Shown here: one piece after another, positions 7,007 through 13,304 of the stretch
Position numbering within the stretch: position 1 is the stretch's first letter
Layout: each line of letters opens with the position of its first letter
Source: Methanomicrobiales archaeon
GTDB lineage: Archaea > Halobacteriota > Methanomicrobia > Methanomicrobiales > Methanospirillaceae
DNA: 36,679 bases
NCBI GenBank assembly: GCA_025350045.1
Contig: JANXYM010000096.1
Location: forward strand, 1 to 36,679
Reading direction: 5' to 3'
Notes under the pieces: model-generated
The model's input: the letters and a program-made list of their open reading frames with translations, nothing else
The model's database searches: none
Told to the model about the DNA's origin: nothing
Made by a program: the position numbers and the translations under genes

Positions 7007-7899
7007 AACTCGAGGAACTGAGATTCGGTACCGAGCTCCTCAAGCGCGGCTTTGCATCCATGCAGAAAGGAGGCGTTATCATGGATGTGGTGAATGCTGA
7101 TCAGGCAAAGATCGCAGAGGAAGCCGGGGCCGTTGCAGTCATGTCTCTGGAGCGGGTGCCTTCCGATATCCGGAAGATGGGTGGCGTTGCCCGTATGGCA
7201 GATCCCCAGAAGGTTATCGAGATTATTGAGGCGGTATCTATCCCGGTGATGGGAAAAGTGCGGATCGGCCATTTCGTCGAAGCTCAGGTGCTCGAAACGC
7301 TGGGTGTTGACATGATCGACGAGAGCGAAGTCCTGACCCCGGCAGATGAGCAATACCATATCGATAAGAAACGCTTCAAGGTCCCTTTTGTCTGCGGTGC
7401 CCGCGATCTCGGAGAGGCGCTTCGCAGGATCAATGAAGGAGCCGCCATGATCCGGACTAAGGGTGAAGCAGGTACCGGTAACGTTGTCGAAGCGGTACGC
7501 CACATGCGAAATATAATGGGAGAGATCCGCATGCTCAAGGGCATGGACAAGCAGGAGATGACTGACTATGCACGGGAAATTGAAGCCCCTGCAGAATTGG
7601 TCATCGAATGTGCCGAGCGCGGCAGGTTGCCCGTAGTAAACTTCTCAGCCGGTGGAATCGCCACCCCTTCAGATGCTGCAATGATGATGCAACTTGGCGC
7701 AGATGGTGTCTTTGTCGGGTCAGGAATCTTCAAGTCCACCAATCCCGAGCTGATGGCAAAAGCAATTGTCGAAGCTGTCAACCACTTCAATGAGCCAGAG
7801 GTTATCGCACGGGTAAGCCGCGGGCTTGGTGACGCGATGCCCGGCCTCGATATCCACACCCTCAGGGAAGATGAGGTGCTGCAGACCCGTGGACGTTAA
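7003..7899 (+). CDS. pdxS: Pyridoxal 5'-phosphate synthase subunit PdxS
   Basis: PdxS is the TIM-barrel lyase of the deoxyxylulose-independent PLP pathway; it combines ribose 5-phosphate, glyceraldehyde 3-phosphate and ammonia from PdxT. The 298-aa protein is full length and almost canonical: [19 protein letters not shown] near the N-terminus, the pentose-binding lysine K85 in [29 protein letters not shown], and the phosphate loop [12 protein letters not shown]. It overlaps cbiB by ATGA and pdxT by 11 bp, so the two PLP synthase subunits are translationally coupled. Confidence 0.98.
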
Positions 7900-8479
7900 G
7901 ATCGGGGTTCTCGCGCTGCAGGGCAATGTGAGCGAGCACATCGATGCGTTTGTGCTTGCACTCGACCGCCTTGGCTGCGGGAGATCTTCAGAGGTTGTCA
8001 CGGTTCGTCACCCTGCGGATCTGGAAGGTTGTCAAGCCTTGGCACTTCCGGGTGGGGAGTCGACGACCATCTCCCGGCTCATCGATAAAAATCACCTCTA
8101 TGAGCCGATCCGCACCTTTCCCGGGGGGATTTTTGCAACCTGCGCCGGCATGGTGCTGATCGCGACTCACGTGGATGATGCCCGCATTCATACACTGAAT
8201 CTCATCGACATGACGGTCGACCGGAACGCATTCGGTCGCCAGCGCGAATCGTTTGAAACCGACCTCCCCATAGATAGCCTTGGGGGGGAATCGTTTCATG
8301 CAATATTCATCCGGGCACCGGTTGCTACCCATGCGGGTACTAGTGTCAAGGTGCTCTCCCGGCTGGATCAGGGGATTGTCGCCGTTGAGCAGGAAAAGCA
8401 TATGGCCCTGTCATTCCACCCGGAACTCGGCGGGGACACCCGGCTGCACGAGCGGTTTTTGAAAAAGATTGGCATTTAA
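7889..8479 (+). CDS. pdxT: Pyridoxal 5'-phosphate synthase glutaminase PdxT
   Basis: PdxT is the class-I glutamine amidotransferase partner that supplies ammonia to PdxS. The nucleophile is C85 in FATCAGMV, and the triad is completed by H177 and E179 in [20 protein letters not shown] is the characteristic glycine-rich loop. The preferred start is GTG 7889 ([13 protein letters not shown]), inside the end of pdxS, with GAGGTG upstream at about 7874-7879. ATG 7871 in the same frame is an alternative adding six residues. Homologues begin directly at the IGVLALQG strand, which favours the GTG. Confidence 0.95.
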
Positions 8480-8540
8480 CCGCGCATCTCCGGTTTATCC
8501 TCCTTATTTTCGCACGTTATCCATAGATCAAGTATCAATA

Positions 8541-8548
8541 TTTATTAT
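8541..8548 (+). promoter_or_regulatory. TATA box of the small gene at 8571
   Basis: TTTATTAT lies 23-30 nt upstream of ATG 8571. This places the transcription start at or beside the start codon and supports ATG 8571 over upstream in-frame starts. Confidence 0.5.
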
Positions 8549-8570
8549 CCTGCGCGTAGCACGTACCATA

Positions 8571-8825
8571 ATGACTATCAGAAAAACGCGCCGCAAAAAC
8601 GATGAAAAACCGTTTCATGAAGCAGTGACCGATCTGCTCTTCTCTTCTATGGCAAACCACGAGGATTTTGTCATGACCTATGAGGTCAACCCTTCCACGA
8701 ATAAAAAGGAAATTCATGTGATGGCAGGAAAATTAATCTCCTCCGATCTGCTGGTGAAGCTGAAGGAACATGTCGCAGAGCAGCTTGACGATGGGAGCGG
8801 ACACCATATCCGGCAGATGGAATAA
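8571..8825 (+). CDS. Small hypothetical protein
   Basis: This 84-aa protein is not recognised. It begins with a very basic stretch (TIRKTRRKNDEKP). A mixed alpha/beta body follows, including VMTYEVNPSTNKKEIHVMAG and an amphipathic helix LLVKLKEHVAEQLDD, and the tail is GSGHHIRQME. No membrane segment or metal motif is seen. The reading frame extends upstream to 8469, but the TATA box at 8541-8548 and the lack of a Shine-Dalgarno favour a leaderless transcript starting at ATG 8571. It is followed by a T-rich stretch (about 8836-8842) before the convergent AlkD-like gene. Confidence 0.6.
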   Translation: MTIRKTRRKNDEKPFHEAVTDLLFSSMANHEDFVMTYEVNPSTNKKEIHVMAGKLISSDLLVKLKEHVAEQLDDGSGHHIRQME

Positions 8826-8916
8826 CGAGAAAAATCTTTTTTCATTGATCATCACGGGATATTGCCCGTGAGCTCCTTATCTCAATGGCAGGATGGGTGT
8901 CACTTTTATTGCCGGG

Positions 8917-9630
8917 TTACCAATCTTTCATCATTGCTGCTGCCTTGAGTTCTCCGGGCATCAGCTCGATTGCGTACCGTAACGCCGTCCGGGGCATTGC
9001 TTTCTTGTTTCTCATTACGTAATCGAACACCTTTTTCTGGTGCTTACGGCTCGCTTCCTTGAGGAGCCATCCGTAGCCTTTCTGCACCAAATCGTCCTTA
9101 TCAGTCAGTAACAGATCCGCAATTTCGACCGATTCAGAGAGAAACTTCCCGTGTTTTGCCGGAACGATGAGGGAAACGGCCGCTGCCCGCCGCACCCAGC
9201 GGTTCTCCGATTGAGTCCAGCGCTTCAGTTCATCGATGTATTCCGGGTATTGTTCGATGAAATCACCCATCGTGTGGTTGCAGAACCCGTCGCAGGAAGC
9301 CCAGTTGGTGATATAGGTATCAATCCAGTGCCGGAACACCGGGAGATCCTCTCGTTCATATCTTCCTGAGAGAGCATGCGCCCAGTTCGAGACGATGAAG
9401 GACTCTTCCATGTATCCCGAAAGGTAAAGCTCCTCGCAGAGGGCGAATATCTCCGGTTTTGGCCGCATTTTTACTATCTTCCAATACTTCTTTGCAATCG
9501 CTATCACGTTTGCCGTCTTTATGCCATGGCATGCAATCTCTTCCTTAAAGAACCGCTGCGAGGTTTTCTGGATCTCAGGGTCCGCCTGGCTTTTGAGTTC
9601 CTGCCGGATAGAGGAAATTACCGGGTCCAT
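8917..9630 (-). CDS. AlkD-like DNA alkylation repair protein
   Basis: This 237-aa all-helical HEAT-like-repeat protein belongs to the AlkD family of DNA glycosylases that excise N3- and N7-alkylpurines without base flipping. The four functional positions known from Bacillus cereus AlkD (W109, D113, R148, W187) have counterparts here: W110, D114, R148 and W188, in NWASCDGFCNH, RWVRRAAAV and KGYGWLLKEAS. The length is also the same, so it is likely active. It stands alone, convergent with the small gene at 8571. Confidence 0.93.
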   Translation of the reverse strand: MDPVISSIRQELKSQADPEIQKTSQRFFKEEIACHGIKTANVIAIAKKYWKIVKMRPKPEIFALCEELYLSGYMEESFIVSNWAHALSGRYEREDLPVFRHWIDTYITNWASCDGFCNHTMGDFIEQYPEYIDELKRWTQSENRWVRRAAAVSLIVPAKHGKFLSESVEIADLLLTDKDDLVQKGYGWLLKEASRKHQKKVFDYVMRNKKAMPRTALRYAIELMPGELKAAAMMKDW

Positions 9631-9856
9631 GCAGAGAGGTGAGCATGTATGCGGGATAAGGGAAACGGTATGCGGGAGGTAAAAATGACACTCCGCAGGA
9701 GCAGCTGCAACACCCTGCAGATTTCAGCCAGCAAACTTCCAAAAAAATGAATAATTTCCGGGATGACCAGCCGGCCCCGACCCGTTATTTCTTCTTCTTT
9801 CCGATTTTTGATCTCTTTTACGGCTTGCCAAAGACAGCGCTGATGGGAAGATAACC

Positions 9857-11180: not shown

Positions 11181-11753
11181 CTATTTTTCTCCAAACCCGT
11201 CGGGCATCCGGCCGCTCTTTGCATAGGTATACAGGCTGAAGAGCGAGATTCCACCGGCGGTTGAACCGATCATTGCCAGGGTAAACCATACGAGCATATA
11301 CAGGGCCGCACCTACGATCCACTCTGTTCCCGGGCGCCAGAACAACAGCATCTCAGGAGAAACAACGCCGTAGGCAAAGTGGAAGAGAAGGGAGGTTAAG
11401 GAAACTTCAAAGAACACGAGGCCAAACTGGAGGAAGCAGATGATTGTCTCCCCCCAGCACTTTTTTATCAGCCCGACCAATTCTGCAACCGCACCCGGCA
11501 GGCGTTTGTTCTCAAGGACCAGCATGGGAACAACGAACAGGGCGAGGATGTAGAGCAGGATGTTGATCCCCGAAAGGATCAGGGTCCTGATGCTCCCCAT
11601 CGCAATGCCAATTCCCCGGCCAAACCGTCCCGCTCCCCCGGTTCCAACGGATTTATCATAACCGGTGGAGTCGATAATAATATCGATACCGTGCGCATTC
11701 GGGCACCAGCCCATCCATTCATGAATCATTTCCGATATGCGTGTCAATGTCAT
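11181..11753 (-). CDS. Membrane protein, apparent DUF1673/DUF6159-like chimera
   Basis: The function of this 190-aa protein is unknown. The first 20 residues (ISEMIHEWMGWCPNA) resemble the start of DUF1673 proteins of methanogens. The remainder has two to three hydrophobic helices and the FVVPMLVLENKRLPGAV / LIKKCWGE pattern seen in DUF6159-like membrane proteins. That pairing looks like a fusion, and the DUF6159-like part is short for that family. ATG 11753 overlaps the stop of the upstream helix-turn-helix gene (ATGA), so the two formed an operon. Domain names are from memory. Confidence 0.55.
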   Translation of the reverse strand: MTLTRISEMIHEWMGWCPNAHGIDIIIDSTGYDKSVGTGGAGRFGRGIGIAMGSIRTLILSGINILLYILALFVVPMLVLENKRLPGAVAELVGLIKKCWGETIICFLQFGLVFFEVSLTSLLFHFAYGVVSPEMLLFWRPGTEWIVGAALYMLVWFTLAMIGSTAGGISLFSLYTYAKSGRMPDGFGEK

Positions 11754-12184
11754 ACTAACGCCCTCACTTTCGTAAAGAGTTCCTCCGCTATCTTCGTTGG
11801 ATCGGCAGTCTTCTCAATCCTGGTACTGAGCTCGGTTGCATAAATCCAGGGCAGCTTGATGCAATTAGTATATCGCTGGCATATGCCGCAGTTACCATCA
11901 CGCTCGTATCAGACCTGCATCCCGTGCTTTTCGGACAAAAAGATGATTGAGGGAGTCTGGAAGGGTACCGAACACCCGAACAGGATCCCCCGTTCCGGAT
12001 TGATCTTTTCGATCTCGATCTGGTTTGCGTGTGCCATCTCCCGGAGTGCCGCATCGATCTTCTCATCCATGACAAGAAGGGATTTGGACACCGCCTGCCG
12101 GGAGATGCCCAGCAGGTTGGCTATCGTGATATTGGGGGTACCGTTGCGCCGCATCTTTCAGAATCCGAACTGTTTTTCGTTCAT
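11750..12184 (-). pseudogene. Helix-turn-helix regulator with two in-frame TGA codons
   Basis: From ATG 12184 one frame runs 144 codons to a TGA overlapping the next gene, broken only by TGA at codon 9 (12158-12160) and codon 92 (11909-11911). The parts read continuously: MNEKQFGF-stop-KMRRNGTPN, then a helix-turn-helix (IANLLGISRQAVSKSL), EIEKINPERGILFG, EKHGMQV-stop-YERDGNCGICQRYTNC, and a C-terminal EKTADPTKIAEELF. Trp fits both stops by context (FGFWK and VWYE), so each is TGG changed to TGA. A TATA box remains upstream. Translation from ATG 12154 would give a shortened 81-aa helix-turn-helix protein. Confidence 0.75.
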
Positions 12185-12217
12185 GGGCAGAAGCATACGT
12201 CAACACATACATATTGA

Positions 12218-12272: not shown

Positions 12273-12824
12273 TTATTTTACCGGCTTTCGACCGGCCCAA
12301 TTCGACGGGAAGAGGGCGGGGTCCTGACCTGTGGAATAGAAATCGCCGAGCCAGGTCTGGTTGTCCGCCGCCATGGTCAGGGAGAATTTGCCGTCTTGAG
12401 CTTTCGTCCCGCACATTGTCGAAGCTGACCACGTTCCCGAGAGCGTGTTTTTGACAATCGCACCTTTGAAGGTTGCCTCACACTTAATCCCCTTGTCGAT
12501 AAATGTCCCTGCGACATCCCAGCAAGTCTGGATCATTTTCGCACTTGCCTCGTCCCCGTAGGCCCGGTCAGTATACTTTGTCCACGCCGTGCTGAGATCA
12601 TGGTTGCCTGCCATACCAAGGTAACGGGAGTCCCAGGATCCGTCCCAGACGAGCTTATCCGGGCAAGCCGGGGTGGTCGAGGGTGCCACAACTGCAGTTC
12701 CCTGTGCTGTCGGAGCAGCAGTTGCCGCACCAGGGGTCGAAACCTTGGTTGAAGTACATCCGGTTACACACACTGCGATACAAAGGCATACCAGTACTAC
12801 ACACAAAATACCTGAACCTTTCAT
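12273..12824 (-). CDS. Secreted lipoprotein, local paralogue family copy A
   Basis: This 183-aa protein has a signal peptide ending in the lipobox VTGC (Cys at about residue 23). A Thr/Ala/Pro-rich linker follows to about residue 50, then a repeated-family domain with DGSWDSRY, CWDVAGTF, KNTLSGTWSAS and GKFSLTMAADNQTW. These segments recur in the copies at 13338 and 14086, so it is a local lipoprotein family. The function is unknown. ATG 12824 has AAGGAAG upstream; the longer reading frame to 13265 is not the gene. It is the only copy on the minus strand. Confidence 0.8.
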   Translation of the reverse strand: MKGSGILCVVLVCLCIAVCVTGCTSTKVSTPGAATAAPTAQGTAVVAPSTTPACPDKLVWDGSWDSRYLGMAGNHDLSTAWTKYTDRAYGDEASAKMIQTCWDVAGTFIDKGIKCEATFKGAIVKNTLSGTWSASTMCGTKAQDGKFSLTMAADNQTWLGDFYSTGQDPALFPSNWAGRKPVK

Positions 12825-13040
12825 AATCTTCCTTCTACCGTGAGTATAATAAGACGTGCTATTTGATTCCGGGAAGCAATTGTGTTGTCTCCAGAGTGGA
12901 TGATAAAAATACTCAATTATCTCCCTGTACTCCCCTCCGGTTTCTGTGACCCTCGTGAGCTCTCTAGCGTCTCCAATAACCACATTGATCGCCCTGTTCG
13001 CCTTTACCAGCAGGTGTGAATGTTTGTTTAATAAATGAGG

Positions 13041-13304
13041 ATAGGTAAGACTGAAGTTAAGATGAGCCGGAAGTGCTGGGATGTAACCAGGTCGGTGACC
13101 TTCATCAAAGACCCGTAGTGTACAGGGACTATCACCGGCAAGATTGAGAAGAACCAACTTATTGGGACCTGAAGAGCAACGGGTTGTGAACCCGAAACGG
13201 GATCCGGTGAAGGAAAACTCTCCCTGACTATGGCGGGGGATAACAAGACCTGGACCGGCAAGCAAATCCCCATTCGGGATCTGGATTATCGGATCAAATT
13301 ATAA
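13041..13304 (+). pseudogene. Decayed lipoprotein paralogue, C-terminal remnant
   Basis: In one frame this stretch encodes KCWDVTRSVTFIKDP, a TAG (13116-13118), CTGTITGKIEKNQLIGT, a TGA (13170-13172), RATGCEPETGSGEGKLSLT and MAGDNKTWTGK. These match the CWDVTG, GRIEKNSLSG and FSVTM segments of the neighbours in order. The TGA stands where copy C has Trp (GTWKAY), and AGG (13089-13091) stands where the family has Gly. No N-terminal half or signal peptide is visible upstream, so it is a dead fragment. Confidence 0.75.

Follow-up and report, generated by a model that had tools for sequence, protein, structure and literature searches.

Probable recent inactivation of a redundant Tfx-like regulator, with two in-frame TGA codons at conserved tryptophan positions, in a Methanoregula-like genome

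In the stretch of DNA analysed here (the window, 36,679 nucleotides), a gene for a helix-turn-helix (HTH) regulator that is coupled to a membrane-protein gene contains two in-frame TGA codons. Is this gene read through, with TGA serving as a tryptophan codon, or is it a gene in decay? An earlier note on this DNA had found the two codons, had expected Trp at both of them, and had regarded a recently killed gene as the simplest view and a conditional read-through switch as the more exciting one. The two codons are present as described: the minus strand from 12184 to 11750 translates as MNEKQFGF*KMRR...HGMQV*YERD...RALV*, and the plus strand shows nothing. This frame does not arise by chance, since it has strong matches in dozens of genomes, with E values down to about 1e-80. 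Alignment with 56 intact homologues bears out Trp at both positions: codon 9 is TGG in 55 of them (TTG in the remaining one), and codon 92 is TGG in every one. The third Trp codon of the window regulator is retained as TGG. Because the homologues begin MLLPMN or MLLPTN, and several have no inner ATG, the gene probably starts four codons upstream of the start first assigned (Table 1).

Table 1. Coordinates of features at the regulator locus (codons of the regulator are numbered from 12184)
Feature	Position	Strand	Remarks
Probable pseudogene of a Tfx-like HTH regulator	11750..12196	-	148 codons from the probable ATG at 12196; earlier start 12184
In-frame TGA, codon 9	12160-12158	-	TGG (Trp) in homologues
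In-frame TGA, codon 92	11911-11909	-	TGG (Trp) in homologues
Possible restart fragment, Met11 to codon 91	11909..12154	-	81 aa; open between both stops
TATA-like box TTTATATA	12226-12219	-	inside a 17-nt block identical in the syntenic relative
ATGA stop/start overlap, regulator to membrane gene	11750..11753	-	same overlap in relative G034
Coupled membrane-protein gene, shortened	11181..11753	-	190 aa; C-terminal half matches DUF6159; 365 aa in the syntenic relative
Junction of in-frame internal deletion, membrane gene	11568..11576	-	about 164 codons gone, residues 68-231 of the relative's protein
DNA alkylation repair gene, downstream of the module	8917..9630	-	common to the window and syntenic relative G034

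Pfam gives no confident family for the regulator, and a sequence search of solved structures returns no useful match. The Tfx family model TIGR00721 matches the intact homologues weakly (E 1.7e-4, 21.5 bits), below its cut-off of 60.25. The predicted model of an intact homologue (mean pLDDT 89.6) runs from a short pair of helices through a long third helix and a part of four strands to helices at the C-terminus. This is the order of elements in the eighth-note fold (HTH, long third helix, alpha+beta head), and a similar order of parts has been described for EnfR (PMC10570040). EnfR is the top Foldseek match of the model, but this match is weak (prob 0.95, E 0.042, TM about 0.37). Compared with the Tfx family (EnfR of Thermococcus onnurineus, PDB 8HNO; Tfx of Methanothermobacter), the intact homologue has a similar length, an N-terminal HTH and, as predicted, a like long third helix and C-terminal alpha+beta part. 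In contrast, three cysteines are invariant in the family of the window regulator, which is accompanied by a membrane gene coupled through ATGA; the copy in the window is also broken. The family is here called Tfx-like, not Tfx.

The host genome (2.53 Mb in 121 contigs) has relatives in the named collections that are mostly Methanoregula. Of 108 genomes examined from the family, 50 have the regulator gene; among the matches listed from them, no copy other than that of the window contains internal stops. The nearest intact regulator, 83% identical, is found in relative G034; the DNA alkylation repair gene that both loci have downstream supports the orthology of the two. The host itself has an intact paralogue (G000:C64:95120-95545) that is 68% identical to the window copy. 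Downstream of this paralogue, two full-length membrane genes of 386 and 373 aa stand in tandem (G000:C64:88000-102000, 7091-9833), and an overlap of the ATGA type joins each of them. Two to four copies of the regulator are often found in relatives. In a relative from Lac Pavin (JAPKXV010000103.1, 1453-1856) the regulator is frameshifted near its 3' end, and thus other copies of the family are also decaying. In another relative (G022:C42) the coupled membrane gene is interrupted, with split matches and an internal TAA, which may be a further sign of module turnover. (Upstream of the window regulator, at 12273-12825 on the minus strand, lies a probable lipoprotein gene, whose signal sequence contains a VTGCTS lipobox as judged by eye; the start at 13265 given in the ORF list lies too far upstream.)

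The history of selection on the regulator has been followed with a codon model of 18 sequences, in which the TGA codons are treated as missing, and relaxed purifying selection of the window copy is seen independently of its stops. Omega on the window branch is 0.253 versus a background of 0.084 (2dlnL 8.95, P about 0.003); it is the one branch of 18 that is raised, as the other 17 terminal branches have values of 0.04-0.13 with no significant rise. The relaxation is uneven along the gene, with an omega of 0.63 for codons 10-91, which is not distinguishable from 1, and of 0.18 for codons 93-141. When changes are polarised, the window branch has 21 missense, 11 synonymous and 2 nonsense changes, and the counts for its sister are 5 missense and 7 synonymous. 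At 7 of 53 near-invariant columns the window copy differs from the usual residue (A35S, A79S, H95R, E110K, D114I and the two stops); the intact copy with the most such departures has 4. An omega of 1 over the entire window branch is nonetheless rejected (2dlnL 10.3), which argues that the regulator was constrained for most of the branch and that its decay is recent. The frame has accumulated no frameshift.

The coupled membrane gene is itself shortened. Compared with the syntenic relative's membrane protein, positions 11577-11753 match residues 1-67 and positions 11184-11567 match residues 232-359, so that the middle has been lost in frame; full-length relatives of this protein have about 341-386 aa. 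Relaxed constraint was looked for in the retained half of the gene and none was found, omega there (0.237) being equal to the background. Therefore, either the deletion happened recently or some function remains to the shortened protein, and death of the whole operon is not claimed. In Haloferax volcanii, premature stops in an upstream gene have served as a test of translational coupling (PMC6728339), and by analogy the stops in the window regulator probably lower expression of the coupled membrane gene too.

Could the two TGA codons be read? Within the host, TGA is the commonest stop, ending 119 of the 219 long non-overlapping ORFs in 444 kb sampled, and in the window it ends orc1 and cbiB, as the earlier note had said. 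This stop usage rules out a genome-wide reassignment of UGA to Trp. Selenocysteine insertion is ruled out by the lack of tRNA-Sec and SelB above cut-off in the host genome, together with homologues that have Trp, not Cys, at the TGA sites. A tRNA-Trp with a 4-bp anticodon stem has been linked to UGA read-through (PMC13092985); TGA stands at Trp positions both there and in UGA-to-Trp reassignment, as it does in the window, but the window host uses TGA as its main stop and its tRNA-Trp combines a CCA anticodon with a 5-bp anticodon stem (ACGGG/CCCGT), which rules out the 4-bp-stem mechanism. This tRNA-Trp is the single one found, and no suppressor form with a UCA anticodon or a 4-bp stem was found in a genome that is 95.9% complete. 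The gene for this tRNA (G000:C46, 1-169) lies at a contig end, is missed by the Rfam tRNA model, and has an intron of about 94 nt with ATGATGA and CTGA motifs. With these motifs the intron resembles the box C/D introns that archaeal tRNA-Trp is known to have. A scan of codon usage for further internal stops, run at a strict threshold and with low power, gives 6 candidates in 444 kb; of the three in the window, one marks where a gene ends next to the following one, and the other two lie in frames that overlap annotated genes.

With the code and the tRNA set described, a more limited form of read-through can be weighed, in which a near-cognate tRNA-Trp reads the TGA codons usefully and a low or conditional level of full-length regulator tunes the coupled membrane gene. 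At both stops, a tRNA-Trp that mis-reads TGA would put back the very residue that is expected there; neutrality over the whole window branch is rejected; and persistent in-frame stops under purifying selection have been reported for bacteria (PMC7918605). However, constraint is relaxed on the window branch only, neither position is a stop in any of the relatives listed, and the tRNA-Trp has its normal anticodon and stem. RNA structure downstream of either stop is nothing unusual (z -0.37 and +1.42), two stops in series would multiply a low rate, and the supposed target is itself truncated, with 164 of its roughly 365 codons gone from the middle. The conditional switch of the earlier note thus finds no support, and useful read-through is highly improbable. 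It is just as improbable that the two UGA codons form a low-rate, tRNA-Trp-dependent gate that would limit the regulator and, via the ATGA coupling, a shortened membrane protein whose retained half looks constrained. If read-through were true, an archaeon whose main stop is UGA would provide a rare example of control that depends on this codon.

The TGA codons might instead come from an assembly or base-calling error, or from a mixed-strain consensus, and the fragmented assembly would be in keeping with this. Yet two independent errors would be needed at conserved Trp codons of one gene, and decay of this locus shows itself independently in the surplus of missense changes and in the 164 codons missing from the neighbouring gene, so that an artefact is very unlikely, if perhaps a shade less so than read-through. 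A further alternative is that a truncated product is still made, a short DNA-binding protein running from a restart at Met11 to codon 91 and comprising the HTH and the long helix. An ATG stands at codon 11, just beyond the first TGA, the frame from there to the second stop is open, and the HTH region precedes that stop. Nonetheless, it is precisely codons 10-91 that have the highest omega on the window branch, near-invariant A35 and A79 are changed within them, and the fragment would be without most of the first helix and without the C-terminal part; there is very little likelihood that such a protein accounts for the locus.

Recent decay is much the most probable explanation: the window very probably holds a recently inactivated, redundant copy of a multi-copy module of Tfx-like regulator and membrane protein in a Methanoregula-like genome. 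Four observations count against it, namely the rejection of omega = 1 for the whole branch, the absence of a frameshift, the unrelaxed retained half of the membrane gene, and a draw of two TGA codons with a chance of 1-2%. As to the last of these, given two nonsense mutations, simple mutation models put the chance that both change Trp to TGA at about 1 to 1.6%. G-to-A is the commonest change on the window branch (11 of 34, the two stops included), and stops made by G-to-A on the coding strand arise from Trp codons only; the coincidence, which was chosen post hoc, is mild. The window is like ordinary prokaryotic pseudogenes in its disabling stops, its relaxed constraint, its intact homologues and paralogue, and its neighbouring deletion; it differs in having TGA in place of a Trp codon for both of its stops, a slightly unusual feature that needs no special mechanism. 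The simplest view of the earlier note, a recently killed gene without reassignment across the genome, is thus supported by the homologues, the branch dN/dS, the host stop usage and the tRNA set.

In this very probable reading, conserved Trp codons became TGA by two G-to-A changes, the regulator has started to gather missense changes, and an in-frame deletion has removed the middle of the translationally coupled membrane gene. Translation of the regulator should now end at codon 9, which is codon 13 counted from the probable start, and any ribosome restarting at Met11 would be halted once more after codon 91, with a presumed loss of regulator function and reduced expression downstream. The intact paralogue elsewhere in the genome may make loss of the regulator tolerable through redundancy. 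A tempting claim of recoding is in this way settled, with high probability, as gene decay, and a module of regulator and membrane gene, of which this methanogen family has several copies, is seen being lost at one site.
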